Below are positions 3,820 through 49,319 of a DNA stretch of 64,000 bases, in pieces. Made by a program: the position numbers and the translations under genes. Source of the DNA: Pseudomonas sp. stari2 (GTDB taxonomy: Bacteria > Pseudomonadota > Gammaproteobacteria > Pseudomonadales > Pseudomonadaceae). How positions within the stretch are numbered: position 1 is the stretch's first letter; every line of letters begins with the position of its first letter. Where the stretch lies: assembly GCF_040760005.1 (NCBI RefSeq), contig NZ_CP099760.1, positions 3,839,501 to 3,903,500 of the forward strand, given 5' to 3'. The notes beneath the pieces were generated by a model. That model ran no database searches, was not told the DNA's origin, and saw only the letters and a program-made list of their open reading frames with translations.

Positions 3820-5207
3820 ACTCGATACGCGCGCGGATTCTGCTGCCGGTGCTGTTTCTAGTGTTGCTCGGCGATGTGCTGATCAGTTGGGCGGTTTTGC
3901 GTTACAGCCACCATGAAATCGAAGAAATCTACGACGCCCAACTGGCGCAAAGTGCTCGCCTGCTGCAAGGCGTGCTGGCGCAGCGTGCGCCCGGCGACAA
4001 CGATTGGGAGCGTCTGCATCAGGCCTTCGACGAAGCGATGAGCCGGGTCGGTGATGGCGAGGCGGCTCATCCCTATGAGACACGGTTGACCTTTCAGGTC
4101 TGGCGCAACGACGGTCAGTTGCTGATGCGTTCGGCCGAAGCGCCGATTCTGGATGCACCGCCCGCCACCCTCGGCGCCCATGACCTGATGGAAAACGGTC
4201 GCGACTGGTGCGCCTTCCTGCTCCAGGATCCGCGACAAGGCCTGTTGATCTGGGTCGGTGAGCGCGACGATATTCGCCAGGACCTGATCACCCGCATCGT
4301 CGGCCATACCCTGTGGCCGAGCCTGATCGGCGTGCCGTTGCTGACCATTTTGATCTGGCTGACCATCGGCTGGGGTTTGCAACCGCTGCGGGCCATGGCC
4401 CGCTCGATCCGTGGTCGCGACACCGACACCCTGAAACCGCTGCACCTGAGCCCCCTGCCCCAGGATCTGGAGCCGATGCAGACCGCGCTCAACCGCTTGC
4501 TGCAACAGATCGACAACCTGCTGGCCCGGGAGCGACGCTTTATCGCCGATGCCGCCCACGAGCTGCGCACGCCGTTGGCAATCCTGCGGATTCACGCGCA
4601 GAACGCGCAGTTGGCCAACACCCCGCAACAACGCGAAGAAGCACTGGAGTTTCTGGTCAGCGCCGTGGACCGCGCCACGCGCATCGCCAGCCAGTTGCTG
4701 ACCATGGCGCGCATCGAACCGCGTCTGGCGTCCCCGGAAAACTCTCACGTCGAATTGACCGCGCTGGTGCGCGAGGAACTGGCCGAGCTGACGCCACTGG
4801 CCCTGGAAAAAGACGTCGAGCTGATCCTCGACAGCGATCATCACTGCCCGGTCGACACCGATCCGGTAGCGTTGGCCATCGCTCTGCAAAATCTGGTAAC
4901 CAATGCGCTGAACTTCGCGCCACCCGGCAGCGAGGTGCGGGTTCAGGTGCAGCCACAGGCCTGCGGTTCGGTGTCGATCAGCGTCGAAGATGCCGGCCCT
5001 GGCATCGATGAGCAGCAATATGCGCGGCTGTTCGAACGCTTCTACAGCGAGGGCCACGCCAATGGCGCCGGTCTCGGGCTGGCCATCGTGCAGATGATCG
5101 TGAGCAAGATCGGCAGCACCTTGCAGCTGTACAACCGACCCGAAGGCGGGCTGTGCGCCGAGCTGCGAATCCCTGCGGGATCAACCGAACCTGCGCCGGG
5201 CATTTAA
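3816..5207 (+). CDS. Sensor histidine kinase, QseC/PmrB type
   Basis: This 463-residue kinase has a first membrane helix at about residues 8-28, a periplasmic sensor of about 135 residues (2CSK_N-like), and a second helix at about 172-192 (TLWPSLIGVPLLTILIWLTI). A HAMP-like linker, the H-box DAAHELRTPLA (phospho-accepting His about 247) and an HATPase domain follow, with the N-box LVTNALNFAP, DAGPGID (G1) and GAGLGLAIV (G2). The sensor has no RExxE iron-binding motif of the BqsS type, so it should not be called BqsS. Signal unknown. It phosphorylates the regulator encoded just upstream, with which it overlaps. Confidence 0.92.
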   Translation: MNSIRARILLPVLFLVLLGDVLISWAVLRYSHHEIEEIYDAQLAQSARLLQGVLAQRAPGDNDWERLHQAFDEAMSRVGDGEAAHPYETRLTFQVWRNDGQLLMRSAEAPILDAPPATLGAHDLMENGRDWCAFLLQDPRQGLLIWVGERDDIRQDLITRIVGHTLWPSLIGVPLLTILIWLTIGWGLQPLRAMARSIRGRDTDTLKPLHLSPLPQDLEPMQTALNRLLQQIDNLLARERRFIADAAHELRTPLAILRIHAQNAQLANTPQQREEALEFLVSAVDRATRIASQLLTMARIEPRLASPENSHVELTALVREELAELTPLALEKDVELILDSDHHCPVDTDPVALAIALQNLVTNALNFAPPGSEVRVQVQPQACGSVSISVEDAGPGIDEQQYARLFERFYSEGHANGAGLGLAIVQMIVSKIGSTLQLYNRPEGGLCAELRIPAGSTEPAPGI

Positions 5208-37454: not shown

Positions 37455-37724
37455 AGACCTTCCCCTATTTATTATTGTTAGGCCATTCGGCCTTCAAGGG
37501 CGCCGCAAGCGTGCTCCGGCGGCGGTTGGTCAGAAGCATAGTCCTGAAACCCGCAATCCAGAGCCACTTCGGAAGCTGGCTCATCCTATCGGGCATTCGA
37601 AACGTCTGACAATCGGCGCAACGTTATCTTTTGTTAACCGAAAGGGATTACGTCGGCGGCTGAATGCGCGGGCATTCGTCCGACTGATGGAAGGGAATCT
37701 TGCGTGGGGGACTTGCACGATCGG
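37455..37724. other. Intergenic region upstream of the flavin-linked operon
   Basis: This 270-base stretch separates the Ycf48-like gene (minus strand) from the DUF1185 operon (plus strand). I see the divergent promoter area but no gene. A TTGCAC hexamer at 37713-37718 sits 14 to 16 bases before the operator-overlapping TATACC/TACCAT and may be a -35 element. A TTGCGT at 37700-37705 is another candidate. Confidence 0.4.
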
Positions 37725-37740
37725 TATTATGGTATACCAT
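37725..37740. promoter_or_regulatory. Shared operator site 1 (TATTATGGTATACCA), DUF1185 operon
   Basis: ATGGTATACCAT at 37729-37740 is a perfect 12-base palindrome, 39 bases before the DUF1185 start. The 15 bases TATTATGGTATACCA (37725-37739) are identical to those in front of the RibB-like gene at 43981-43995. GGTATA-type sites are known for FadR-subfamily GntR proteins such as NanR, which suits the GntR encoded at 41671. Confidence 0.7.
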
Positions 37741-37779
37741 CAGACGCACAGACACTCTTTATCCCCTACGGAGCAGCTC

Positions 37780-38370
37780 ATGAGTTTCGAAATTCGCAAG
37801 ATCGTCAGCTATGTCGAAGAGACGTTCATTGAAGGCGGCAAAGCGGCCGACACGCCTGTAACCATGGCCGGCCTGGCCGTCGTGATGAAAAACCCGTGGG
37901 TCGGAAATGGCTTTGTCGAAGACCTCAAGCCGCAGATCCGAGCCAACTGCTCCGACCTCGGCGCGATGATGGTCGAGCGTCTGGTGGGCATCATCGGCGG
38001 CGCCGAGAAGATCGAGGCTTACGGCAAGGCTGCGGTGGTCGGTGCCGATGGCGAGATCGAACACGCCTCGGCGGTGATCCACACCCTGCGTTTCGGCAAC
38101 CACTACCGCGAAGCGGTGAAGGCCAAGAGTTACCTGAGTTTCACCAACAAGCGTGGCGGTCCGGGCACTTCGATTCAGATCCCGATGATGCACAAGGACG
38201 ACGAAGGCCTGCGCTCGCACTACATCACTCTGGAAATGCAGATCGAAGACGCCCCGCGTGCCGACGAAATCGTCGTGGTGCTCGGTTGTGCCGACGGAGG
38301 CCGCCTGCACCCGCGCATCGGTAACCGTTACATCGATCTTGAAGAACTGGCTGCCGAAAAAGCCCAGTAA
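37780..38370 (+). CDS. DUF1185 (amino acid synthesis family) protein
   Basis: The 196-residue protein starts at ATG 37780 behind CGGAG: MSFEIRKIVSYVEETFIEGG. The DUF1185 pattern is VAVVMKNPWVGNGFVEDLKPQIRANCSDLGAMMVERLVGIIGGAEKIEAYGKAAVVGADGEIEHASAVIHTLRFGNHYREAV and VLGCADGGRLHPRIGNRYIDLEEL. Despite the old family name, no biosynthetic reaction is established for it. It is the first gene of a five-enzyme operon with hydrolase, aldehyde dehydrogenase, flavin reductase and CMD genes. That points to a catabolic enzyme acting on a small nitrogen-containing compound. The longer frame upstream is out of gene context. Confidence 0.85.
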   Translation: MSFEIRKIVSYVEETFIEGGKAADTPVTMAGLAVVMKNPWVGNGFVEDLKPQIRANCSDLGAMMVERLVGIIGGAEKIEAYGKAAVVGADGEIEHASAVIHTLRFGNHYREAVKAKSYLSFTNKRGGPGTSIQIPMMHKDDEGLRSHYITLEMQIEDAPRADEIVVVLGCADGGRLHPRIGNRYIDLEELAAEKAQ

Positions 38371-38401
38371 TCACAATAAAAAGGCATTGCAGGAGCGCTC
38401 C

Positions 38402-39235
38402 ATGATTCGGCCTACCGCTGAACTCACCCCGGCCGGCACCAGTTATCTGGCGACCGGCCAAGGCCAACCCGTGGTGTTGATCCACGGTGTGGGCCTGAAC
38501 AAAGAAATGTGGGGCGGCCAGATCGTTGGCCTGGCCACGCAATACCGGGTGATCGCCTACGACATGCTCGGCCATGGCGCCAGCCCGCGACCGGCCAGCG
38601 GCACCGCCCTGCTCGGTTATGCCGATCAGTTGCTGGAGCTGCTCGACCACCTGCAATTGCCCTTGGCATCAGTGATCGGTTTTTCCATGGGCGGTCTGGT
38701 GGCGCGGGCCTTTGCCCTGCATTACCCGGAGCGCCTGAAAAGCCTGGTGGTGCTCAACAGCGTGTTCAACCGCAGCGAAGAGCAGCGCGCCGGGGTCATC
38801 GCCCGCACCGCGCAGGCTGCCGAACATGGGCCGGACGCGAATGCCGAAGCGGCGCTGTCGCGCTGGTTCAGCCGTGAGTATCAGGCGGCCAACCCGGCGC
38901 AGATCGCCGCGATTCGCCAGACCCTGGCCGGCAATGACCCGCAGGGTTACCTGACCACCTACGAATTGTTCGCCACCCAGGACATGTACCGCGCCGACGA
39001 TCTGGGCAGCATTCAGGCGCCGACGCTAATCGCCACCGGCGAGCTGGACCCCGGATCGACGCCGGAAATGGCCGAGCAACTGGCCGCGCGCATTCCCGGC
39101 GCGAAGGTTGCCGTGCTGCCCGAGCAACGGCATATGATGCCGGTAGAGTCGCCTCGGCTGGTGAACCAGACACTGCTGGAATTTCTCGAAACCGCACACG
39201 CCCGACAAAACCATATAAAGGGGATCGTTGCATGA
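38402..39235 (+). CDS. Alpha/beta hydrolase
   Basis: The start at 38402 (MIRPTAELTPAGTSYLATGQG) gives 277 residues. The alpha/beta-hydrolase core has VVLIHGVGLNKEMW (oxyanion loop HGVG), the nucleophile elbow GFSMGGLVARAFAL (Ser about 98), the acid in ATGELDPGS (Asp about 221) and His in EQRHMMPVESP (about 246). It resembles enol-lactone and carboxy-ester hydrolases such as PcaD. In this operon it probably opens a lactone, lactam or enamide produced by the flavin-dependent oxygenation step. The gene overlaps the aldehyde dehydrogenase start by 4 bases. Confidence 0.88.
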   Translation: MIRPTAELTPAGTSYLATGQGQPVVLIHGVGLNKEMWGGQIVGLATQYRVIAYDMLGHGASPRPASGTALLGYADQLLELLDHLQLPLASVIGFSMGGLVARAFALHYPERLKSLVVLNSVFNRSEEQRAGVIARTAQAAEHGPDANAEAALSRWFSREYQAANPAQIAAIRQTLAGNDPQGYLTTYELFATQDMYRADDLGSIQAPTLIATGELDPGSTPEMAEQLAARIPGAKVAVLPEQRHMMPVESPRLVNQTLLEFLETAHARQNHIKGIVA

Positions 39236-40713
39236 CACTCGCACGCTTCCAGATGTGCATCGGCGGAGAATGGGTCGACGCCCTCTCCGGCAAGACTTTC
39301 GAAAGCCTCAACCCTGCGCTGGCCGAGCCTTGGGCCGAACTGCCCGACGCCGATGAAGCCGATGTCGAACGCGCCGTGCAAGCCGCACAGACCGCCTTCG
39401 AAAGCCCGGCATGGCGTGGCCTGACCGCCACCGCTCGCGGCAAGCTGCTGCGTCGTCTCGGTGACCTGATCGCAGAAAACAAGGAACAACTGGCGCAGCT
39501 GGAAAGCCGCGACAACGGCAAACTGATCCGCGAAACTCGGGGTCAGGTCGGTTATCTGCCGGAGTTTTTCCACTACACTGCCGGCCTTGCCGACAAGCTC
39601 GAAGGCGGCACCCTGCCGCTGGACAAGCCCGACCTGTTTGCCTACACCGTGCACGAAGCCATGGGTGTGGTCGCCGCGATCATTCCGTGGAACAGCCCGC
39701 TCTATCTGACCGCGATCAAACTGGCGCCGGCGCTGGCAGCGGGCAACACCATCGTGATCAAGCCGTCGGAACACGCCTCGGCGACCATTCTGGAATTGGC
39801 GCGCCTGGCCCTCGAAGCCGGAATTCCACCGGGCGTGGTCAACGTCGTCACCGGTTACGGCCCGAGCACCGGCGCCGCCCTCACCCGTCATCCACTGATC
39901 CGCAAGATCGCCTTCACCGGCGGCGCGGCCACGGCCCGACATGTGGTGCGCAGCAGCGCCGAGAATTTCGCCAAGCTGTCGCTGGAACTGGGCGGCAAGT
40001 CGCCGAACATCATCTTCGCCGACGCTGATCTCGACAGCGCAATCAATGGTGCAATTGCCGGGATTTACGCGGCGTCCGGCCAGAGCTGCGTATCCGGTTC
40101 GCGACTGCTGGTGCAGGACGAAATCTACGACGAGTTCGTCAGCCGACTGGTGGAACGCGCCCGGCGCATCCGCATCGGTAACCCGCAGGATGACAGCAGC
40201 GAGATGGGCCCGATGGCTACCGCGCAGCAACTGGCGGTGGTTGAAGGTCTGGTGGCTGATGCCATCGCTGAGGGTGCGCGCCTGCGACTGGGTGGCAAGC
40301 GCCCGAGTGGCGTCGGTGACGGCTGGTTCTATGAACCGACGCTGTTCGAGTGCGACCGCAATTCGATGAAGATCATGCAGGAAGAAGTCTTTGGTCCGGT
40401 GGCCTCGGTGATTCGTTTCAAAGATGAAGCCGAAGCACTGGCGATTGCCAACGACTCGCAGTTCGGCCTCGCCGCCGGCATCTGGACCCGTGATCTGGGC
40501 CGCGCCCATCGCCTGGCCCGGGACGTGCGTTCGGGAATCATCTGGGTCAACACCTACCGCGCGGTGTCGGCGATGGCACCGATCGGAGGCTTCAAGAACA
40601 GTGGCTATGGACGCGAAAGCGGCATCGACTCGGTGCTGGCCTACACCGAACTGAAAACGGTGTGGATCAACCTCTCCCAGGCACCGATGCCTGATCCGTT
40701 TGTGATGCGCTAG
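39232..40713 (+). CDS. NAD(P)+-dependent aldehyde dehydrogenase
   Basis: The 493-residue ALDH has the usual motifs: IIPWNSPLYLTAIKLAPALAAGNTIVIKPSEHAS, IAFTGGAATARHV (cofactor loop), LSLELGGKSPNIIFADAD (catalytic Glu about 264), ASGQSCVSGSRLLVQ (catalytic Cys about 298) and MQEEVFGPVASVIRF. It oxidises an aldehyde to an acid. The substrate is unknown, but it works with the hydrolase whose gene it overlaps. It ends 12 bases before the flavin reductase start. Confidence 0.92.
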   Translation: MTLARFQMCIGGEWVDALSGKTFESLNPALAEPWAELPDADEADVERAVQAAQTAFESPAWRGLTATARGKLLRRLGDLIAENKEQLAQLESRDNGKLIRETRGQVGYLPEFFHYTAGLADKLEGGTLPLDKPDLFAYTVHEAMGVVAAIIPWNSPLYLTAIKLAPALAAGNTIVIKPSEHASATILELARLALEAGIPPGVVNVVTGYGPSTGAALTRHPLIRKIAFTGGAATARHVVRSSAENFAKLSLELGGKSPNIIFADADLDSAINGAIAGIYAASGQSCVSGSRLLVQDEIYDEFVSRLVERARRIRIGNPQDDSSEMGPMATAQQLAVVEGLVADAIAEGARLRLGGKRPSGVGDGWFYEPTLFECDRNSMKIMQEEVFGPVASVIRFKDEAEALAIANDSQFGLAAGIWTRDLGRAHRLARDVRSGIIWVNTYRAVSAMAPIGGFKNSGYGRESGIDSVLAYTELKTVWINLSQAPMPDPFVMR

Positions 40714-40725
40714 GAGTCCAGCGAC

Positions 40726-41211
40726 ATGATCGAACCCGGCATTTACAAAGACGTCATGAGCTCGTTTCCGTCCGGGGTCACGGTGGTCACCACCCTCGAC
40801 CCGGACGGCGGCATCGTCGGGATCACCGCCAGCGCCTTCAGTGCGCTGTCGATTGATCCGGCGCTGGTACTGTTCTGCCCCAACTACGCCTCCGACACCT
40901 ACCCGGTGCTGCGCGACAGCAAGCGTTTCGCGATCCATTTGCTGTCCGCCGACCAGACCGCCGAGGCCTACGCTTTCGCTGGCAAAGGCAAGGACAAGGC
41001 CAACGGCATCGACTGGCATTTGAGCGAGCTCGGTAACCCGATCCTCGCCAAGGCCACGGCGATCATCGAGTGCGAGCTGTGGCGCGAATACGACGGCGGC
41101 GACCACGCGATCATCGTTGGCGCGGTGAAGAACCTGATCCTGCCGGAGCAACCGGTGACGCCGATGATTTATCACAAGGGCAAGCTCGGCGCGTTGCCGA
41201 CACTGGGTTGA
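40726..41211 (+). CDS. Flavin reductase (HpaC/DIM6-NTAB type)
   Basis: The 161-residue protein MIEPGIYKDVMSSFPSGVTVVTTLDPDGGIVGITASAFSALSIDPALVLFCPNYASDTYPVLRDSKRFAIHLLSADQ is a typical FMN-binding split-barrel NAD(P)H:flavin oxidoreductase; the SAFSALSIDPALVLFC segment binds the flavin. It would supply reduced FMN/FAD to a flavin-dependent monooxygenase. No such monooxygenase is encoded anywhere in this cluster. The AGGAG ribosome site overlaps the stop of the aldehyde dehydrogenase. Confidence 0.92.
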   Translation: MIEPGIYKDVMSSFPSGVTVVTTLDPDGGIVGITASAFSALSIDPALVLFCPNYASDTYPVLRDSKRFAIHLLSADQTAEAYAFAGKGKDKANGIDWHLSELGNPILAKATAIIECELWREYDGGDHAIIVGAVKNLILPEQPVTPMIYHKGKLGALPTLG

Positions 41212-41222
41212 GCGGAGGACAC

Positions 41223-41612
41223 ATGAGCAACGAGAAATATGAGCAAGGCCTGAAGATCCGCACCCAGGTGCTCGGCAAAGACTATGTGCAGCGCTCGATC
41301 AAGAACGCCGACGACTTCAACCGCCCGCTGCAGGAAATGGTCACCGAATACTGCTGGGGCCATGTCTGGGGGCGCGAGGGCCTGTCGCTCAAGGAGCGCA
41401 GCATGATCAACCTGGCGATGATCTCCGCGCTGAACCGCCCGCACGAACTGAAACTGCATGTGCGTGGCGCCTTGCGTAACGGCCTGAGTCGTGAGCAAAT
41501 ACGCGAAATTCTGCTTCAGGTCGGTATTTATTGCGGCGTCCCGGCAGCCGTGGACAGTTTCCGGCTCGCCCGTGAAGCCTTCGCCGAAGCCGACGCCGAG
41601 GCCTCCAGTTAA
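41223..41612 (+). CDS. Carboxymuconolactone decarboxylase-family protein
   Basis: The 129-residue start at 41223 (MSNEKYEQGLKIRTQVLGKDYVQRSIKNAD) follows GCGGAGGAC. The all-helical CMD fold shows FNRPLQEMVTEYCWGHVWGREGLSLKERSMINLAMISALNRPHELKLHVRGALRNGLSREQIREILLQVGIYCGVPAAVDSF. The conserved E-Y-C-W-x-x-x-W and His-containing segment of the 4-carboxymuconolactone decarboxylase branch are present; the peroxidase-type CxxC pair of AhpD is not. It probably acts on a ring-opened or lactone intermediate within the same operon. Confidence 0.88.
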   Translation: MSNEKYEQGLKIRTQVLGKDYVQRSIKNADDFNRPLQEMVTEYCWGHVWGREGLSLKERSMINLAMISALNRPHELKLHVRGALRNGLSREQIREILLQVGIYCGVPAAVDSFRLAREAFAEADAEASS

Positions 41613-41670
41613 CCCCTCGGCTGTTTTGATGCCCGTCTGGCATGGACAGCCACCTTAAAGAGCGGACCCC

Positions 41671-42423
41671 ATGAAACGCCTGCCACTCGACGACAGCTTC
41701 AAGGTCAATCGCAACCCCGTCACCCTGCGCGAAATCGTGCTGGATAAACTGCGAAGCGCCATCATGAACTTCCAGCTGCTACCGGGCGATCGCCTGGTGG
41801 AGCGCGATCTGTGCGATCGCCTGGGCGTGAGCCGTACGTCGGTCCGGGAAGCCTTGCGTCACCTGGAATCCGAAGGCCTGGTGGAGTTCGCCGACGCCAA
41901 GGGTCCGCGCGTGGCGATCATCACCCTCGCCGATGCCGTCGACATCTATGAACTGCGCTGCGTACTCGAAGGCCTGATCGTCCAGTTGTTCACCCTGCGC
42001 GCCAAGGCCAAGGACATCAAGGCCCTGGAAAAAGCCCTCGACGAGAACCGCAAGGCGCTCAAGGACGGCGAGTTGCAACAGGTGATCGACTCGGTGCAGG
42101 GTTTCTACGACGTGCTGCTGGAAGGCTCGGGCAACCATGTGGCGGCCACCCAGTTGCGTCAGTTGCAGGCGCGCATCAGCTACCTGCGAGCAACGTCGGT
42201 ATCCCAGGAAAACCGTCGCGGCGCCAGTAATCACGAGATGGAAAAAATGGTCGAGGCGATCAAGAGCGGCGATCCGCTGGCGGCGCATCAGGCGTGCGTC
42301 GATCACGTTCGTGCGGCGGCGGCAGTGGCCCTCGATTACCTGAAGCGCAAACAGGAAGAAACCGGCGCCACACCGGCGATCACCCTGCCCATCGCGCTGA
42401 AAGAACCGCGCATAGGTCACTGA
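41671..42423 (+). CDS. FadR-type GntR regulator of the flavin-linked cluster
   Basis: The 250-residue protein has a winged helix (about 15-85) with LREIVLDKLRSAIMNFQLLPGDRLVERDLCDRLGVSRTSVREALRHLESEGLVEF. The FCD domain (about 95-230) has VDIYELRCVLEGLIVQLFTLRAKAKDIKALEKAL and SNHEMEKMVEAIKSGDPLAAHQACVDHVRAAAAVALDYL. It is the last but one gene of the plus-strand operon. The three TATTATGGTAT sites in front of the surrounding transcription units are the natural candidates for its binding; this is inference from position and motif class. Confidence 0.88.
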   Translation: MKRLPLDDSFKVNRNPVTLREIVLDKLRSAIMNFQLLPGDRLVERDLCDRLGVSRTSVREALRHLESEGLVEFADAKGPRVAIITLADAVDIYELRCVLEGLIVQLFTLRAKAKDIKALEKALDENRKALKDGELQQVIDSVQGFYDVLLEGSGNHVAATQLRQLQARISYLRATSVSQENRRGASNHEMEKMVEAIKSGDPLAAHQACVDHVRAAAAVALDYLKRKQEETGATPAITLPIALKEPRIGH

Positions 42424-42424
42424 C

Positions 42425-42988
42425 ATGTTCAGCCCGAGCTTTTGCCCGAAATGCGGTGGCGCTGACCTTGGTCAGCAGGTGCCGCCGGGCGATACGCACG
42501 AGCGCCTGATGTGCCGCGGCTGCGGCTACATCCACTATGTGAACCCGAAAATCATCGCCGGCTGCATCATTGAGCAGGACGGCAAATACCTCTTGTGCCA
42601 ACGGGCGATTCCTCCGCGCCCGGGCACCTGGACCCTGCCCGCCGGTTTCATGGAAAGCGGCGAAACCACCGAACAGGCCGCCCTGCGCGAAGTCTGGGAA
42701 GAAAGCGGCGTGCGCGCGGAAATCGTCTCGCCGTACTCGATCTTCAGCGTGCCGAAGATCAGCGAGGTCTACATCATCTTCCGCGCCCTCGCACTGGAAA
42801 TCACCGGCCAATACGGCCCGGAAACCCAGGACTGCAAATTCTTCGCCCCCGAAGACATCCCGTGGGACCAGATCTACTACCCGGCGATCCGGCAGATCCT
42901 CGAACGCTACATCGAGGAACGCCAGGCCGGGGTGTATGGCATGTATATGGGTAATGACGACAGTGGCAAGATTCATTTCATGCGTTGA
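42425..42988 (+). CDS. NUDIX hydrolase with N-terminal zinc ribbon
   Basis: The 187-residue protein starts MFSPSFCPKCGGADLGQQVPPGDTHERLMCRGCGY, a zinc ribbon with two C-x2-C pairs. The NUDIX box follows, GFMESGETTEQAALREVWEESGV (G-x5-E-x7-REVxEE-x-G), with the metal-binding glutamates intact. The HYVNPKIIAGCIIE and RPGTWTLPAGF contexts match the NADH-pyrophosphatase-like and ADP-ribose-type branch. It begins 1 base after the GntR stop and is surely in the same operon. In a flavin-linked cluster an FAD or nucleotide pyrophosphatase role is possible but unproven. Confidence 0.9.
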   Translation: MFSPSFCPKCGGADLGQQVPPGDTHERLMCRGCGYIHYVNPKIIAGCIIEQDGKYLLCQRAIPPRPGTWTLPAGFMESGETTEQAALREVWEESGVRAEIVSPYSIFSVPKISEVYIIFRALALEITGQYGPETQDCKFFAPEDIPWDQIYYPAIRQILERYIEERQAGVYGMYMGNDDSGKIHFMR

Positions 42989-43044
42989 TCAGCCGTCACT
43001 TGCAAGAGATACAGAGCCCGCCCGACTCTTCGGTCGATGTCTAT

Positions 43045-43527
43045 TCAGTCCGGCATCGAACGAATGATGTCAGCCAGATCATCTTTGGTGATTTCATTGG
43101 CTTTGAGAGCAGCGAAGATGTCTTTCCTGGAGAGCGGGAAACGCTTGAAAATGTCTTTCAAGGTATCGGCATCAATATTGGCCAGCCAAAGAGGATCGAT
43201 AAAAGAACCGCCATATTCAGGCTTCATTGGGGTTTCTTCGTGGGCAATGGCACCTTTGTGATTCAGATACACCACATAACGATCGTGCCCTTCAGGAAAG
43301 CTTTTATCGTGATAAAGCGTTGTTCCCATCGGCAGGACATAGTAATTGTCATCGCCACCTTGCCCTTCGATCAGCAGTGGTTCTTGGGTTTTAACCATCT
43401 CCAGATCGCGTCCCTTCGCACTGTTCCCCAAAATCAGAAAAGCCAGAAAGACCGCATTTACCAATAGAGCAGCCACTAGCCAGAGACCCACTCGCGTACC
43501 TGTAAACATTCCTTTTGTCATGCGCAT
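43045..43527 (-). CDS. Single-helix membrane protein of unknown function
   Basis: The ATG at 43527 (MRMTKGMFTGTRVGLWLVAALLVNAVFLAFLILG) has GGGAA 6 bases before it, giving 160 residues. There is one N-terminal membrane helix (about 14-34), then a periplasmic or cytosolic domain with DDNYYVLPMGTTLYHDKSFPEGHDRYVVYLNHKGAIAHEE and a helical end DADTLKDIFKRFPLSRKDIFAALKANEITKDDLADIIRSM. No family recognised. It converges with the NUDIX gene and is probably unrelated to the flanking catabolic genes. Its A/T content looks a little higher than that of its neighbours, so it may be an insertion. Confidence 0.7.
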   Translation of the reverse strand: MRMTKGMFTGTRVGLWLVAALLVNAVFLAFLILGNSAKGRDLEMVKTQEPLLIEGQGGDDNYYVLPMGTTLYHDKSFPEGHDRYVVYLNHKGAIAHEETPMKPEYGGSFIDPLWLANIDADTLKDIFKRFPLSRKDIFAALKANEITKDDLADIIRSMPD

Positions 43528-43664
43528 CAATATTCCCTTAGAGCAACCCGTGCAAAACCGCAGGCATTAAATCCCATCCGGCAGGCGATCTCCTGATCCA
43601 GAAAAAAACAAAAGATCGCGGCCATGTTCGATTCTGTGGTTCCTGCGGGTTTACAGGCAAGACG

Positions 43665-43958
43665 TTACGGCGCCATCCCTTCGACAATAACGATCTCCGC
43701 CCTCGCCCACTCCTCCCGGTAGCACTTCGCTTCCTGATACGCCGCCGAGCGATAGCACGCCACCGCCTGCTCGTAACTGTCGAACTCGATCACCACACTG
43801 CGCTGCGGCGTCGTCCGGCCTTCCATCGCTTCGCTGCGCCCGCCTCTCGCCAGAAACTTCGCACCAAACTCGGCGAACGCTTTCGGCGCGCGCTGGGTGT
43901 ATTGGCTGTAGTGATCGGGATCGGTGATGTCCACGTGAGCAATCCAGTACGCCTTCAT
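43665..43958 (-). CDS. DUF1330 protein
   Basis: The 97-residue protein MKAYWIAHVDITDPDHYSQYTQRAPKAFAEFGAKFLARGGRSEAMEGRTTPQRSVVIEFDSYEQAVACYRSAAYQEAKCYREEWARAEIVIVEG is a complete DUF1330 dimeric ferredoxin-like fold. Its members resemble small monooxygenases or isomerases. The gene is divergent from the RibB-like gene across a 65-base space that holds operator site 2, so both are probably controlled by the same regulator. The reaction is unknown; DUF1330 could be the missing oxygenation or isomerisation step in this pathway. Confidence 0.85.
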   Translation of the reverse strand: MKAYWIAHVDITDPDHYSQYTQRAPKAFAEFGAKFLARGGRSEAMEGRTTPQRSVVIEFDSYEQAVACYRSAAYQEAKCYREEWARAEIVIVEGMAP

Positions 43959-43980
43959 AGTGACCTCTTGGTTGAATTTG

Positions 43981-43996
43981 TATTATGGTATACCAC
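43981..43996. promoter_or_regulatory. Shared operator site 2 (TATTATGGTATACCA), DUF1330 / RibB-like divergent promoter
   Basis: The 15 bases TATTATGGTATACCA at 43981-43995 are identical to site 1 at 37725-37739. The 12-base palindrome ATGGTATACCAC differs from site 1 only at its last base. It lies 22 bases from the DUF1330 start and 28 bases from the RibB-like start, so one bound repressor could block both. Confidence 0.72.
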
Positions 43997-44023
43997 GAAT
44001 TTCATCCACATCGAGAGTCCAGC

Positions 44024-45133
44024 ATGGCCTTCAACAGCATCGAAGAAATCATCGAAGATTATCGCCTCGGCAAAATGGTGTTGCTGGTCGATGACGAAGA
44101 CCGGGAAAACGAAGGCGACCTGCTACTGGCCGCCGACCGTTGCACGCCCGAAGCGATCAGTTTCATGGCTCGTGAGGCTCGGGGGCTGATCTGCCTGACG
44201 TTGACCGACGATCACTGCCAGCGCCTGGGGCTGGAGCAGATGGTACCGAGCAATGGCAGCGTGTTCAGCACCGCGTTCACAGTTTCCATTGAAGCGGCGG
44301 TCGGCGTGACTACCGGGATTTCCGCCGCTGACCGCGCTTGTACGGTGGCCGCTGCGGTGGCGCCAAATGCTCGCGCAGAAGACTTGGTGCAACCCGGCCA
44401 TATCTTCCCGCTGCGCGCCAAGGAAGGTGGCGTGCTGACCCGTGCCGGCCACACCGAGGCCGGTTGCGATCTGGCGCGTCTGGCGGGTTTCACCCCGGCC
44501 TCGGTGATCGTCGAGGTGATGAACGACGACGGCACCATGGCCCGTCGTCCGGATCTGGAAGTCTTTGCGCGCAAGCACGGGATCAAGATCGGCACCATCG
44601 CCGACCTGATCCACTATCGCCTGAGCACCGAACACACCATCGAACGCATCGGCGAACGGGAATTGCCGACGGTGCATGGCACCTTCCGTTTGATCACCTT
44701 CGAAGACCGCATCGAGGGCGGCGTACACATGGCGATGGTCATGGGTGAATTGCGCCGTGAGGAACCGACGCTGGTGCGTGTGCATGTGATCGACCCGCTG
44801 CGGGATCTGGTCGGCGCCGAGTACAGCGGGCCGACGAACTGGACGCTGTGGGCAGCGCTGCAACGGGTCGCCGCCGAAGGCCATGGCGTGGTCGTGGTGC
44901 TGGCCAATCATGAGTCGTCGCAGGCGTTGCTGGAGCGGGTGCCGCAACTGACACAGCCGCCACGGCAGTTCAGTCGTTCGCAATCGCGGATCTATTCGGA
45001 GGTTGGCACCGGGGCGCAGATTCTGCAGAACCTGGGCGTCGGCAAGCTGCGCCACCTGGGCCCGCCGCTGAAATACGCCGGTTTGACTGGCTACGATCTG
45101 GAAGTGGTCGAGAGCATTCCGTTCACCGAATAA
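44024..45133 (+). CDS. RibB-like 3,4-dihydroxy-2-butanone 4-phosphate synthase with degenerate GTP cyclohydrolase II domain
   Basis: The 369-residue start at 44024 ([33 protein letters not shown]) follows GAG. The DHBP synthase half (about 1-205) has [53 protein letters not shown] and the acidic residues that bind ribulose 5-phosphate. The second half (about 206-369) aligns with GTP cyclohydrolase II, but the zinc ligands C-x10-C-x-C are absent; the region reads [18 protein letters not shown]. It is therefore probably a RibBX-type enzyme that makes only the butanone phosphate for riboflavin. It is separate from any housekeeping rib operon, controlled by operator site 2, and should raise flavin supply when the cluster is induced. 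Confidence 0.9.
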
Positions 45134-45167
45134 CCCTGTTTGCCAGATAGCCGGTAAGGCAAAGTGC

Positions 45168-45205
45168 TTGCACAAAGTTTGGAATACCATAATATGATAT
45201 TCCAT
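45168..45205 (+). promoter_or_regulatory. Promoter and operator site 3 of the ABC importer operon
   Basis: TTGCAC at 45168-45173 and TAATAT at 45190-45195 are 16 bases apart, a good sigma-70 promoter. ATACCATAATA at 45184-45194 is the reverse complement of TATTATGGTAT, the core of sites 1 and 2, and covers the -10. A longer imperfect palindrome GGAATACCAT...ATGATATTCC spans 45181-45203. A repressor bound here would block the polymerase. Confidence 0.62.
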
Positions 45206-45299
45206 AGACCGGACGACCTGAAAAACCGTCCAGCTACTGCTCCCGACAGGCGGGCAACAACGCAAGCCCGCTCAAAAACACAACAATGAGGGCGTAAAA

Positions 45300-46325
45300 A
45301 TGGTGTTGAACAAAGCTGCAACCGCGATCTTTCTTGCGGGACTGCTGAGCGTGACCGGTCAGGCCGCGATGGCCGCCGAGAGTGTGAACTTTGTCAGCTG
45401 GGGCGGTAGCACCCAGGATGCGCAGAAACAGGCTTGGGCTGATCCGTTCAGCAAGGCCAGCGGCATCACCGTCGTGCAGGACGGCCCGACCGACTACGGC
45501 AAACTCAAGGCCATGGTCGAAAGCGGCAACGTTCAATGGGACGTGGTCGACGTCGAAGCCGATTTCGCCCTGCGCGCCGCGTCCGAGGGCCTGCTCGAAC
45601 CCCTCGATTTCAAACAGATCCAGCGCGACAAGATCGACCCACGCTTCGTCAGCGACTATGGCGTCGGCTCGTTCTTCTTCTCCTTCGTCCTCGGCTATAA
45701 CGAGGGCAAACTCGGCGCCAACAAGCCGCAGGACTGGAGCGCACTGTTCGACACCAAGACCTACCCCGGCAAACGCGCCCTGTACAAATGGCCGAGCCCC
45801 GGCGTGCTTGAACTGGCCCTGCTCGCCGACGGCGTACCGGCCGACAAGCTCTACCCGCTGGACCTGGATCGCGCCTTCAAGAAACTCGACACCATCAAGA
45901 AAGACATCGTCTGGTGGGGCGGCGGCGCGCAATCGCAGCAACTGCTGGCCTCCGGTGAAGCGAGCATGGGCCAGTTCTGGAACGGCCGGATTCACGCCCT
46001 GCAAGAAGACGGCGCACCGGTGGGCGTGAGCTGGAAACAGAACCTCGTAATGGCTGACATTCTGGTCGTGCCAAAGGGCTCGAAAAACAAGGACGCGGCG
46101 ATGAAGTTCCTGGCCAGCGCCAGCAGTGCCAAGGGTCAAGCGGACTTCTCCAACCTGACCGCCTATGCCCCGGTCAACGTCGACAGTGTGCAGCGTCTGG
46201 ACTCGACGCTGGCCCCGAACCTGCCGACTGCCTACGCTAAGGATCAGATCACTCTTGATTTCGCGTACTGGGCCAAGAATGGCCAGTCCATCGCGACACG
46301 GTGGAACGAATGGCTGGTCAAATGA
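45300..46325 (+). CDS. ABC transporter substrate-binding protein, PotD/PotF type
   Basis: The 341-residue protein has a signal peptide (cut after AMA, about 25) and begins AESVNFVSWGGSTQDAQKQAWADPFSKASGITVVQDGPTDYGKLKAMVESGNVQWDVVDVEADFA. This is the layout of spermidine/putrescine, opine and small-amine binding proteins of the PotD group. FYNEGKLGANKPQDWSALFD and YKWPSPGVLELALLADGV complete the family pattern. GAGGG lies 7 bases before the ATG. It is the first gene of a four-gene importer and the one closest to operator site 3. The ligand is probably a cationic or nitrogen-rich compound, but is not known. Confidence 0.92.
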   Translation: MVLNKAATAIFLAGLLSVTGQAAMAAESVNFVSWGGSTQDAQKQAWADPFSKASGITVVQDGPTDYGKLKAMVESGNVQWDVVDVEADFALRAASEGLLEPLDFKQIQRDKIDPRFVSDYGVGSFFFSFVLGYNEGKLGANKPQDWSALFDTKTYPGKRALYKWPSPGVLELALLADGVPADKLYPLDLDRAFKKLDTIKKDIVWWGGGAQSQQLLASGEASMGQFWNGRIHALQEDGAPVGVSWKQNLVMADILVVPKGSKNKDAAMKFLASASSAKGQADFSNLTAYAPVNVDSVQRLDSTLAPNLPTAYAKDQITLDFAYWAKNGQSIATRWNEWLVK

Positions 46326-47269
46326 AAATGGCGGCCACCGCGTCCCGTCCCTCCACTGCCACCGGGAGCGCCGCCAGCGCTGCCGGGTCGGCCGCCGGAA
46401 AAAAGGCCAGTACGATGGCGCCAGCCCCGTCCCTCAAGCAACGCTGGCGCGGCGCCGGCAACCTCGCGCCGGCGCTGCTGTTCCTCGGCCTGTTCTTTCT
46501 CGCGCCGTTGATTGGCCTGCTGTTGCGCGGCGTGCTGGAACCGGTGCCGGGCCTTGGTAACTACGAACAACTGTTCGCCAACTCGGCTTACGCACGGGTG
46601 CTGTTCAACACCTTCTCGGTGGCAGGACTGGTGACGGTGTTCAGCCTGTTGCTGGGCTTTCCGCTGGCATGGGCGATCACTCTGGTGCCGCGCGGCTGGG
46701 GCCGCTGGATCCTCAACATCGTGCTGCTGTCGATGTGGACCAGTCTCCTCGCCCGCACCTATTCGTGGCTGGTGCTGTTACAGGCTTCGGGCGTCATCAA
46801 TAAAGCCTTGATGGCCATGGGCATCATCGATCAGCCGCTGGAAATGGTGCACAACCTGACCGGCGTGGTGATCGGCATGAGCTACATCATGATCCCGTTC
46901 ATCGTGCTGCCGTTGCAGGCGACCATGCAGGCCATCGACCCGATGATCCTGCAGGCCGGCTCGATCTGTGGCGCGAGCCCGTGGACCAACTTCTTCCGGG
47001 TGTTCCTGCCGCTGTGCCGGCCGGGTCTGGCGTCCGGCGGGTTGATGGTGTTCGTGATGTCGCTCGGTTACTACGTCACCCCGGCGCTGCTGGGCGGGGC
47101 GCAGAACATGATGCTGCCGGAGTTCATCATTCAGCAGGTGCAGTCGTTCCTCAACTGGGGCCTGGCCAGCGCCGGCGCCGCGTTGCTGATCGTCATCACG
47201 CTGGTGCTGTTCTACGTCTACCTGAAGCTGCAGCCGGAATCCCCGGTTGGCGCCAGTAACGCGAGGTAA
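46322..47269 (+). CDS. ABC permease, PotB-like
   Basis: The 315-residue permease overlaps the binding-protein stop by 4 bases. It begins with an unusual Ala/Ser/Thr/Lys-rich soluble stretch of about 40 residues (MKMAATASRPSTATGSAA), then helices at about 45-70, 100-130 and 140-165. The BPD_transp_1 EAA loop follows in SICGASPWTNFFRVFLPLCRPGLASGG (about 220-246). It pairs with the second permease to form the membrane channel. Later in-frame ATGs could be used, which would trim the odd N-terminus. Confidence 0.9.
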   Translation: MKMAATASRPSTATGSAASAAGSAAGKKASTMAPAPSLKQRWRGAGNLAPALLFLGLFFLAPLIGLLLRGVLEPVPGLGNYEQLFANSAYARVLFNTFSVAGLVTVFSLLLGFPLAWAITLVPRGWGRWILNIVLLSMWTSLLARTYSWLVLLQASGVINKALMAMGIIDQPLEMVHNLTGVVIGMSYIMIPFIVLPLQATMQAIDPMILQAGSICGASPWTNFFRVFLPLCRPGLASGGLMVFVMSLGYYVTPALLGGAQNMMLPEFIIQQVQSFLNWGLASAGAALLIVITLVLFYVYLKLQPESPVGASNAR

Positions 47270-47275
47270 GCCGAG

Positions 47276-48085
47276 ATGCTCCTGACCCCCAATGCCATGA
47301 GCCGCCGGATGCGCTTCGGCCTGTACGCCACCACCGGGCTGATCGCGCTGTTTCTGCTGCTGCCGATCGTTTTTATTGTCCTGCTGTCGTTCGGCTCGTC
47401 CCAGTGGCTGGTATTCCCGCCGCCGGGCTGGACGCTGAAATGGTACGGCCAGTTCTTCTCCAACGCCGACTGGATGAACGCAGCGGCAGCCAGCCTCAAG
47501 GTTGCGGTACTGACCACGATCTGCGCCGTGGCCCTAGGTTTGCCGACTGCTTTTGCCCTGGTGCGCGGACGCTTCCCCGGCCGGGAAATGCTCTACGGCC
47601 TGTTCACCCTGCCGATGATCGTGCCGCTGGTGATCATCGCCGTGGCGGTGTACGCGCTGTTCCTCAAGCTCGGCTACACCGGGACGATGTTCGCCTTCGT
47701 CGTCAGCCATGTGATCGTTGCGCTGCCGTTCACCATCATCTCGATCATCAACTCGCTGAAGCTGTTCGATCAGTCGATTGAAGATGCGGCGGTGATCTGC
47801 GGGGCGTCACGCCTGCAAGCGGTGTTCAAGGTGACCTTTCCGGCGATTCGTCCGGGGATGGTGGCCGGCGCCCTCTTCGCTTTCCTGGTTTCGTGGGACG
47901 AAGTAGTGCTGAGCGTGATGATGGCCAGCCCGACCCTGCAAACCCTTCCCGTGAAAATGTGGACCACCCTGCGCCAGGACCTGACGCCCGTGATCGCCGT
48001 CGCCTCGACGCTGCTGATCGGCCTGTCGGTATTGGTCATGGTGATCGCCGCCGCGCTGCGCCGGCGCAACGAAATCAGCGCCTGA
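47276..48085 (+). CDS. ABC permease, PotC-like
   Basis: The 269-residue permease begins MLLTPNAMSRRMRFGLYATTGLIALFLLLPIVFIVLLSFG after GAGGTAAG. Six helices and the EAA-loop AAVICGASRLQAVFKVTFPAIRPGMVAGALFAFLVSWDEVVLS (about 177-220) are typical of the PotC partner of polyamine importers. Its start lies 6 bases after the first permease. Confidence 0.92.
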   Translation: MLLTPNAMSRRMRFGLYATTGLIALFLLLPIVFIVLLSFGSSQWLVFPPPGWTLKWYGQFFSNADWMNAAAASLKVAVLTTICAVALGLPTAFALVRGRFPGREMLYGLFTLPMIVPLVIIAVAVYALFLKLGYTGTMFAFVVSHVIVALPFTIISIINSLKLFDQSIEDAAVICGASRLQAVFKVTFPAIRPGMVAGALFAFLVSWDEVVLSVMMASPTLQTLPVKMWTTLRQDLTPVIAVASTLLIGLSVLVMVIAAALRRRNEISA

Positions 48086-48101
48086 GCGCCAGGAGTACGA
48101 C

Positions 48102-49256
48102 ATGAGTGCCGTGATCAAAGACGCATCCCAGCAGAACGACAAACCCCTGGTCAGCCTGCGCAACCTGAACAAGCACTACGGCGATTTCGCCGCCGTGGAC
48201 AACATCTCGCTGGACATCAAGGACGGCGAGTTCCTGACCTTTCTCGGCTCCAGCGGCTCGGGCAAAAGCACCACACTGTCGATGCTCGCCGGGTTCGAAA
48301 CCCCGAGCAGCGGCGAGATCCTGGTCAACGGCCAGTCGCTGGTCAACGTGCCGCCGCACAAGCGCGACATCGGCATGGTGTTCCAGCGTTACTCGCTGTT
48401 CCCGCATCTGTCGGTGCGCGACAACATCGCGTTCCCGCTGGCGATCCGCAAACTCGCGGCGGCCGAGCGTGACAAACGTGTCGACGCGATGCTGAAACTG
48501 GTGCAACTGGAGCAGTTCGCCCATCGCCGCCCTTCGCAACTGTCCGGCGGCCAGCAGCAACGGGTCGCCATCGCCCGGGCGCTGGTTTACGAGCCACGCA
48601 TCCTGTTGATGGACGAACCCCTCGGCGCGCTGGACAAGAAACTTCGTGAAGATTTGCAGGATGAATTGCGCCAACTGCACCGCCGCCTCGGCATCACCAT
48701 CGTCTACGTGACCCACGATCAGGAAGAAGCCATGCGCCTGTCCCAGCGCATCGCGATTTTCAGTCACGGCAAGATTGTCGGGCTCGGCAGCGGTTATGAC
48801 CTGTACCAGAATCCGCCGAATGCATTTGTGGCGTCGTTCCTCGGCAACTCGAACTTCCTCAAGCTCAAGGCACAGGGCAACGGCGCGGCGAGTTTTGAAG
48901 GGCAGTCGCTGTCGATTCGCCTGACTGCCGGATTGCAGACCGGGCAGGATGTTTTGCTGATGGTGCGCCCGGAAAAGGCGTTGGCGTTGAGTGTGCAGCA
49001 GGCGAATGACGAGCCGTTGGCGGCGGGTTGGAACGAAGTTTCGGCGAAGGTGGTCGAGGTGCTGTTTCTGGGTGAGAGCCAGACCTGCAGTGTGGTGACT
49101 TCCGGCGGGACTTCGATGACGGTGAAGGCGCTGTCGGCGGCGGGGATGCCGTTGAAGGCTGGCGATCCGGTGCAGGTGCGCTGGGCGACGTCTGATGCCT
49201 GCGTCTACACCGAGTGGGCCGAAAGCGATCTGAACAAAGCCGCGGGTGCTCACTGA
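48102..49256 (+). CDS. ABC ATPase, PotA-like
   Basis: The 384-residue ATPase has Walker A GSSGSGKST (about 49-57), the signature LSGGQQQRVAIARAL (about 146-160), Walker B RILLMDEPLGALD and the H-loop VYVTHDQEEAM. A TOBE domain (about 285-380) is the regulatory part of PotA-type subunits. AGGAG precedes the start. It ends the importer operon and is followed at once by a strong terminator. Confidence 0.94.
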   Translation: MSAVIKDASQQNDKPLVSLRNLNKHYGDFAAVDNISLDIKDGEFLTFLGSSGSGKSTTLSMLAGFETPSSGEILVNGQSLVNVPPHKRDIGMVFQRYSLFPHLSVRDNIAFPLAIRKLAAAERDKRVDAMLKLVQLEQFAHRRPSQLSGGQQQRVAIARALVYEPRILLMDEPLGALDKKLREDLQDELRQLHRRLGITIVYVTHDQEEAMRLSQRIAIFSHGKIVGLGSGYDLYQNPPNAFVASFLGNSNFLKLKAQGNGAASFEGQSLSIRLTAGLQTGQDVLLMVRPEKALALSVQQANDEPLAAGWNEVSAKVVEVLFLGESQTCSVVTSGGTSMTVKALSAAGMPLKAGDPVQVRWATSDACVYTEWAESDLNKAAGAH

Positions 49257-49283: not shown

Positions 49284-49319
49284 GGCCACCGCAACGTCGG
49301 GTTGCGGTGGCCTTTTTTT
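49284..49319 (+). terminator. Intrinsic terminator of the ABC importer operon
   Basis: GGCCACCGCAAC / GTTGCGGTGGCC is a perfect 12-bp stem with a GTCGG loop, followed by seven T (49313-49319). It lies at the end of the importer operon and overlaps the stop codon of the convergent map gene. Confidence 0.95.

Follow-up and report, generated by a model that had tools for sequence, protein, structure and literature searches.

A probable trigonelline (N-methylnicotinate) catabolic regulon with a conserved palindromic operator in Pseudomonas sp. stari2

The closest described counterpart of the locus analysed here is the tgn pathway of Acinetobacter baylyi ADP1 for the catabolism of trigonelline (N-methylnicotinate), reportedly set out by Perchat et al. 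in 2018; the reaction scheme used below is said to be theirs. The locus belongs to Pseudomonas sp. stari2 and lies partly in a window of 64,000 nucleotides (the whole stretch of DNA that was analysed, genome positions 3839501–3903500) and partly just beyond its end. We propose, from sequence comparison, that it is very probably a Pseudomonas regulon for trigonelline catabolism, in which a TgnR-type regulator of the GntR/FCD family would act on the palindrome GTATTATGGTATACCATAATAC. The pathway itself is known, the operator is deeply conserved and was not found described in the literature covered, and the layout is specific to Pseudomonas. According to PMC8269262, trigonelline comes from plants and has been measured in seawater too; its ring is opened by TgnA/TgnB, and Ruegeria pomeroyi grows on it. 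A passage of a paper on coumarin degradation (PMC7913881) reports that TgnF, a DUF1185-family homologue, stimulates TgnE in A. baylyi ADP1.

In A. baylyi DSM 14961 the locus (L088) contains, in this order, genes for a DUF1330 protein, a GntR regulator, a DUF1185 protein, a hydrolase, a flavin reductase, a luciferase-like monooxygenase (LLM), an aldehyde dehydrogenase (ALDH), an NCS1 permease, a succinic semialdehyde dehydrogenase (SSADH) and a carboxymuconolactone-decarboxylase-family (CMD) protein. It is of the same species and has the same gene set as the cluster characterised in ADP1, which we take it to be. Nine of its genes matched the Pseudomonas regulon at 35–77% identity, the LLM at 51%, the NCS1 permease at 54% and the other seven as given in the list below. 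This gene-by-gene match provides the pathway with a described counterpart. A preliminary description of the window had foreseen import of a small nitrogen compound followed by flavin-dependent oxygenation, hydrolysis and aldehyde oxidation; this chemistry is supported, but the accompanying statement that no such pathway had been described could not be upheld. The genes of the window, whose families and linkage were read directly, are (window positions):

37780–38370, plus strand: DUF1185/AA_synth protein, TgnF-like (PF06684, 236 bits; 56% identical to the A. baylyi locus)
38402–39235, plus strand: alpha/beta hydrolase, TgnD-like candidate for the ring-product hydrolase (PF00561; 36% to A. baylyi)
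39232–40713, plus strand: ALDH, TgnC-like (PF00171; match at 52% to its full-length A. baylyi counterpart)
40726–41211, plus strand: first copy of the flavin reductase (reductase 1), limited to a TgnA-like reductase domain (PF01613; 38% identity with the N-terminal portion of its TgnA-like counterpart in A. baylyi)
41223–41612, plus strand: CMD-family protein (PF02627; 77% to the gene that immediately follows SSADH in A. baylyi)
41671–42423, plus strand: GntR/FCD regulator, TgnR-like, candidate operator binder (PF00392 and PF07729, in line with the FadR-type regulator announced previously; 35% to the GntR protein encoded next to DUF1185 in A. baylyi)
42425–42988, plus strand: stand-alone Nudix protein (PF00293 and PF14803), homologous to the C-terminal domain of TgnA-type reductases
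43665–43958, minus strand: DUF1330 protein (PF07045; 49% to A. baylyi)
44024–45133, plus strand: RibBA paralogue, DHBP synthase with a weakly matching GTP cyclohydrolase II domain (NF009132, 816 bits, above the cut-off)
45300–46325, plus strand: PotD-type substrate-binding protein, SBP (PF13416)
46301–47269, plus strand: ABC permease A, start codon provisional (PF00528)
47276–48085, plus strand: ABC permease B (PF00528)
48102–49256, plus strand: ABC ATPase, PotA-like (PF00005 and PF08402)

The DUF1185 family PF06684 had no match in 14 control genomes. The operon looked odd because the oxygenase, a paired flavin reductase and an NCS1 permease are situated just outside the window under the same operator. 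Their positions are given on stretch L031, whose coordinates plus 59000 correspond to the window scale:

L031 6842–8248, minus strand: NCS1-type permease, divergent from flavin reductase 2
L031 8571–9056: flavin reductase 2 (PF01613), first gene of the pair, under the outer operators
L031 9124–10167: LLM, TgnB-like (PF00296), 4.1 kb past the window end

This pair of PF01613 and PF00296 proteins, the two-component oxygenase feature of the tgn pathway, supplies the oxygenase that the preliminary scheme needed, and it is found with the TgnC-, TgnD- and TgnF-like genes. The LLM was 97% identical to one from Pseudomonas sp. rhizo66. Among the best 120 of 1866 LLM relatives, four, at 76–83% identity, bore the JGI name “flavin-dependent trigonelline monooxygenase, oxygenase component”; most other named relatives among the matches listed carried generic names. 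The NCS1 permease was 57–58% identical to that of A. baumannii, the best of six matches in its own genome, with the neighbouring paralogue at 53%.

The same gene set was then followed in 84 related loci (80 from a genome scan and four from plasmid-collection records), all picked by LLM similarity. The hydrolase and the ALDH were matched in all 84, DUF1185 in 83, the reductase in 82, GntR in 78 (best match anywhere in the locus), DUF1330 in 69, NCS1 in 44 (42 at an identity of at least 45%) and CMD in 35 (18 at least 60% identical); the count of 84 for SSADH includes cross-hits to the ALDH gene. The hydrolase was within 1.5 kb of DUF1185 in 82 loci. A PotD-type SBP, 56–65% identical, was present in 35 loci, and permeases A and B were matched above 40% identity in 34 and 35 of the 84, so that the importer, like DUF1330, is an ordinary tgn companion. 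RibBA was matched in none of the 84. In rhizobia, Rhodobacterales and Burkholderiales (L073, L074 and most of L092–L157) many loci share a core of GntR and DUF1185-hydrolase-reductase-LLM-ALDH with the operator in the same place, but they are mostly compact. Compared with A. baylyi, the Pseudomonas genes are split over several operator-bearing promoters, the reductase and Nudix parts are on separate genes, a RibBA paralogue and a PotD-type importer are added, and SSADH is missing from the operon. Scattered over several promoters in this way, the Pseudomonas pathway is easy to miss. The Arthrobacter dokdonellae plasmid pDCT5 (L071) encodes an LLM 80% identical to that of Pseudomonas, together with NCS1, GntR, DUF1185, hydrolase, ALDH, a stand-alone Nudix protein and, beside the Nudix gene, a flavin-supply gene (riboflavin kinase); it differs by two DUF1185 genes, a tautomerase, a SnoaL-reductase fusion and an SSADH within the cluster. 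This tgn-like cluster covers positions 4342–15068 of L071, its reductase being fused to a SnoaL-like domain, and the plasmid is typed as mobilizable.

The 15-mer TATTATGGTATACCA was found exactly at 37725–37739 and 43981–43995, in front of the DUF1185 operon and of the RibB-like/DUF1330 pair as originally reported, and with one mismatch on the minus strand at 45180–45194, where a reversed copy across the importer -10 had been noted; a weaker copy with three mismatches overlaps it at 45190–45204. With up to three mismatches allowed, the window contained five matches; shuffled versions averaged 0.10, and none of the 100 reached five. The five matches are not independent, the match at 37730 being the same palindrome on the other strand and the one at 45190 overlapping that at 45180. 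The operators of the window are:

37724–37745 (22-bp frame): operator 1, preceding the DUF1185 operon; core TGGTATACCA at 37730–37739, starting 50 bp before the ATG at 37780
43980–44001 (22-bp frame): operator 2, between the divergent DUF1330 (minus) and RibBA (plus) genes; core at 43986–43995
45180–45204: operator 3, preceding the PotD-type SBP; reversed, over a -10-like hexamer, plus the weaker overlapping copy

Given its position between two divergent genes, operator 2 can serve both. Operator 3 overlaps the -10-like hexamer of TGCACA-18-TATGAT (end at 45198), which came from a scan that found two promoters against a shuffle mean of 2.5, that is, not above shuffles. A terminator-like hairpin was seen at 49284–49312, after the ABC ATPase gene. 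In the whole 6.31-Mb genome (one contig) the 12-mer TATGGTATACCA had five distinct sites with at most one mismatch, all inside 30 kb at this locus. Two of them were outside the window, at genome positions 3906834 and 3907007 (approximately 67334 and 67507 on the window scale, 3.3–3.5 kb beyond its end), between the divergent NCS1-type permease and the pair formed by reductase 2 and the LLM.

The operator was strongly conserved at these positions. Upstream of DUF1185, TGGTATACCA occurred without mismatch in 62 and with a single one in 20 of the 83 loci with a readable upstream region, so that 82 of 83 possessed it with at most one mismatch within 200 bp, a quality reached by 0.3% of shuffles. 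The 82 loci belong to Alpha-, Beta- and Gammaproteobacteria, and the sole exception is the actinobacterium Arthrobacter, with three mismatches. The majority base over the 82 sites gave the consensus GTATTATGGTATACCATAATAC, with an agreement of 87–100% in the ten core positions and of 44–93% outside them. The distance to the DUF1185 start was mostly 41–74 bp, and 136–139 bp in three loci. In A. baylyi the operator before DUF1185 has one mismatch in the core, and an exact TATGGTATACCATA precedes the SSADH gene.

Within Pseudomonas, 28 genomes were read in detail (40 loci were taken from 30 genomes, two loci having only a paralogous system described below). Counting loci with a scorable gene start, an operator with at most one mismatch was present within 320 bp upstream of DUF1185 in 28/28, of DUF1330 in 22/22, of RibBA in 22/22, of the SBP in 19/20, of NCS1 in 17/18, of reductase 2 in 25/27 and of the LLM itself in 10/27; the reductase 2 count omits ten loci holding only reductase 1, on which the reductase 2 query had landed. 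The search was extended to 249 genomes of the genus, as an order-wide LLM search at E ≤ 1e-80 had given 8 of 293 genomes with few Pseudomonas sampled. The exact 12-mer TATGGTATACCA was somewhere in 141 of the 249, namely all 140 with a strong DUF1185 match (E < 1e-100; one of them, G153, spans 168 of 196 residues) and one of the 109 others, G058, where DUF1185 was matched in part (residues 1–101). The same pattern read backwards was found in 3 of 249. The two marker genes, strong DUF1185 and LLM (E ≤ 1e-60), occurred together in 138 genomes, DUF1185 alone in two and the LLM alone in three, two of which carry only the paralogous system. The proposal that one operator ties together the catabolic operon, the RibB-like/DUF1330 pair and the importer is thus borne out in relatives, where the operator also tracks the genes, and it withstood two of the refutation tests named with it. 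No publication describing an operator for trigonelline genes or a tgn regulon in Pseudomonas was seen among the matches listed, in a literature that mostly excludes subscription papers, and the cross-class operator is apparently new. The same applies, apparently, to the Pseudomonas regulon, which is scattered, has a RibBA copy to itself and in some relatives also includes a chemoreceptor.

From the likeness to tgn we infer the substrate, its import, the repression by the 41671 protein, the order of the reactions and the roles of RibBA and of the CMD protein. In this model, trigonelline would enter through the PotD-type ABC importer and the NCS1 permease, and the TgnA/TgnB pair (flavin reductase and LLM) would open the pyridinium ring with FMNH2 and O2. 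The TgnC-like aldehyde dehydrogenase would oxidise the ring-opened product, and the TgnD-like hydrolase would split it into methylamine, formate, CO2 and succinic semialdehyde; the CMD-family protein might, as a conjecture, help to decarboxylate a formylsuccinate-like intermediate. The final step would fall to a succinic semialdehyde dehydrogenase encoded elsewhere in the genome, assisted by the DUF1185 protein (TgnF), and RibBA would raise the flavin supply on demand. When no inducer is present, TgnR would keep all five operators repressed, the one in front of its own operon among them.

Several observations weigh against this assignment. The TgnD-like hydrolase, at 36%, is the weakest enzyme match. 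The operon of this genome contains no SSADH (TgnE) gene; matches of 66% were found at 431150 and, with one TAG in the reading, at 3940618, the nearest being 32 kb past the LLM. The plasmid of A. dokdonellae, with the nearest plasmid LLM, had no operator site better than three mismatches. A GntR match was within 2.5 kb of DUF1185 in 62 of the 84 loci only; in 16 more, all titled as Burkholderiales, it lay at a greater distance, and six, some of them short contigs, had no match. The operator is nevertheless retained in nearly all loci, although 22 of 84 had no GntR match within 2.5 kb of DUF1185, and in these the regulator may be encoded at another place or be a different protein. The genomes compared are also related, and the counts measure linkage, each not being independent evidence. 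Finally, the TgnB found here falls in a Pseudomonas/actinobacterial clade, of which we know no assayed member and which shares only about 51% identity with the Acinetobacter clade.

This last point leads to the first alternative, in which the same machinery and regulator family are at work and the ring opened by the Pseudomonas/actinobacterial clade is that of another N-methylpyridinium betaine or N-heterocycle. In a midpoint-rooted tree of 75 LLM sequences, that clade was sister to an Acinetobacter/alpha/beta clade at about 50% identity, and a third LLM cluster, 42–44% identical to this LLM, was found in 6 of 249 Pseudomonas genomes, coexisting with the present system in four of the six; in L174, the one of these followed throughout, a glycine-betaine-type importer comes after it. 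The split into clades and the coexistence suggest that substrates within the family may differ. We consider this alternative unlikely for the present locus, as the operator, the NCS1 permease, the CMD protein, DUF1330 and the SBP are all shared with the Acinetobacter-type clusters. Relatives of the machinery may still use other betaines, which is why the trigonelline assignment is held with high confidence and not with certainty. It is very improbable that the motif belongs to another, global regulator and is not bound by the local GntR protein. Palindromes resembling GGTATACC suit several GntR/FCD proteins, and the loci with no GntR match near DUF1185 could be read in this sense; but every site with at most one mismatch in this genome is at this locus and the exact 12-mer was absent from 108 of 109 Pseudomonas genomes lacking a strong DUF1185, a confinement that does not suit a global regulator. 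The absence of any described counterpart, as first supposed, is scarcely credible: the window holds no oxygenase and, among the matches listed for 12 window proteins against NCBIfam, only RibBA exceeded its family cut-off, but the oxygenase is encoded 4.1 kb beyond the window, as part of a pair starting under the same operator, and all the genes compared except RibBA, the stand-alone Nudix protein and a local hypothetical gene have counterparts in the A. baylyi locus or in tgn-type loci of Rhodobacterales/Burkholderiales.

Other substrates and pathways were set aside. The Rut uracil pathway (RutA–F) shares the general logic of an LLM oxygenase with a flavin reductase and a hydrolase; the hydrolase scored 92 bits against the RutD cut-off of 238.5, and reductase 1 scored 64 against the RutF cut-off of 254.75. 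Roles of the protocatechuate type (PcaC/PcaD) were likewise rejected: the CMD protein came close to the PcaC cut-off (153.0 against 155.7) but has its 77% homologue in the A. baylyi tgn locus. For homarine, the passage of PMC8269262 devoted to it judges TgnA/TgnB unlikely to act on this compound.

Beyond the catabolic enzymes, the proposed trigonelline regulon includes two genes for which a role in flavin supply is inferred. The RibBA under operator 2 is a second copy, the other, 58% identical, being at 5776626; its RibA half scored 33 bits with TIGR00505 against a cut-off of 206, and this large shortfall makes the earlier term “RibB-like” a fair one. In 82 of the 84 related loci, including Acinetobacter, the reductase aligned over both halves, the second being a Nudix-like tail, and most of the 35 Nudix matches of that survey fall inside the reductase gene. 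Profile alignment of the reductase tails with 28 Nudix sequences gave a probability of 99.5% over 135 columns; this set leaves out the L174 and L175 reductase tails, and 30 sequences including both gave 99.7%. For the TgnA C-terminus Pfam had no NUDIX match at E ≤ 1, and the BLAST link was weak (E 1e-6). The Nudix box GX5EX7REXXEEXG was intact in 28/28 stand-alone proteins of Pseudomonas and in 0/82 reductase tails. The homology of the stand-alone Nudix protein to the tail of TgnA-type reductases, as judged from these alignments, is apparently new. PDB structure 3rh7 covers residues 10–308 of one two-part reductase of 310 residues. A PDB search with the Nudix protein gave 3cng, a “NUDIX hydrolase”, as best match and nothing pointing to FAD. 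A degenerate Nudix-like domain fused to the flavin reductase was observed in Acinetobacter, Burkholderiales and alphaproteobacteria (for instance L072:9546–9998). Tentatively, and with more doubt than conviction, the pathway might possess its own FMN-supply line, RibBA making a riboflavin precursor on induction and the Nudix protein turning FAD into FMN for the oxygenase; the fused, box-less Nudix half may bind flavin or channel it to TgnB. If so, flavin supply would have been wired into the pathway at least twice, through RibBA in Pseudomonas and riboflavin kinase in Arthrobacter.

The regulon varies among Pseudomonas genomes. A TgnE-like SSADH, 69–72% identical to the Acinetobacter one, was in the operon after reductase 1 in 10 of the 28 genomes. 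Five compact loci (L169–L173) had no match for DUF1330, RibBA or the importer in the stretch read. Seven loci (L165, L166, L167, L176, L183, L187 and L191) encoded a chemoreceptor of 648 amino acids, 75–100% identical to that of L165, with the operator core within 75 bp of its start. The three that were checked by Pfam had dCache_1, HAMP and MCP domains. Examples beside the LLM gene and under the same operator are:

L165:3302–5248: dCache_1 chemoreceptor
L166:11245–13191: dCache_1 chemoreceptor
L183:2940–4886: dCache_1 chemoreceptor

Partial matches of 63% were found at the stretch edge in L161 and L190; in Pseudomonas sp. stari2 a 74% identical chemoreceptor is encoded far away, with no site of two mismatches or fewer nearby. 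The chemoreceptor under the operator is a candidate trigonelline receptor, and a single circuit would then cover the search for a root compound, its uptake and its breakdown. PMC10104139 reports that the amine-type dCache domains which it tested with trigonelline did not bind it.

New partners are also indicated by the operator, namely a RibBA reserved for this regulon, a Nudix protein that domain fusion connects with the reductase of the oxygenase and, for some species, a chemoreceptor. The presence of the palindrome before the same gene in three classes of proteobacteria offers a simple test for possible trigonelline users, and its conservation makes the guessed repressor directly testable.

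The paralogous system (L174:9756–18942 and L175) consists of DUF1185 (52–53%), a two-part reductase, ALDH, LLM (43%), hydrolase and CMD, with no operator at one mismatch or fewer; in L174 the importer downstream of the LLM cluster has an OpuAC domain. It is a candidate pathway for another pyridinium betaine. In genome G080, an incomplete assembly, the LLM was matched in two overlapping pieces (C1:1585072–1586107), and the gene may be frameshifted there. Further along the Pseudomonas sp. stari2 genome, L031:13012–18349 (approximately 72012–77349 on the window scale) encodes an FAD-dependent oxidoreductase, a RidA-like protein (by eye), a DUF1028 protein, a member of the M20 peptidase family and another NCS1 permease, which is 53% identical to that of Acinetobacter; the trio of FAD-oxidoreductase, RidA and DUF1028 is also downstream of the tgn genes in Leisingera (L073). 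Between the Nudix and DUF1330 genes, the minus strand at 43045–43530 encodes a hypothetical protein of 161 amino acids with no Pfam match; among the Pseudomonas loci read, L178 and L180 alone had a match for it, and it is probably a recent insertion outside the regulon.

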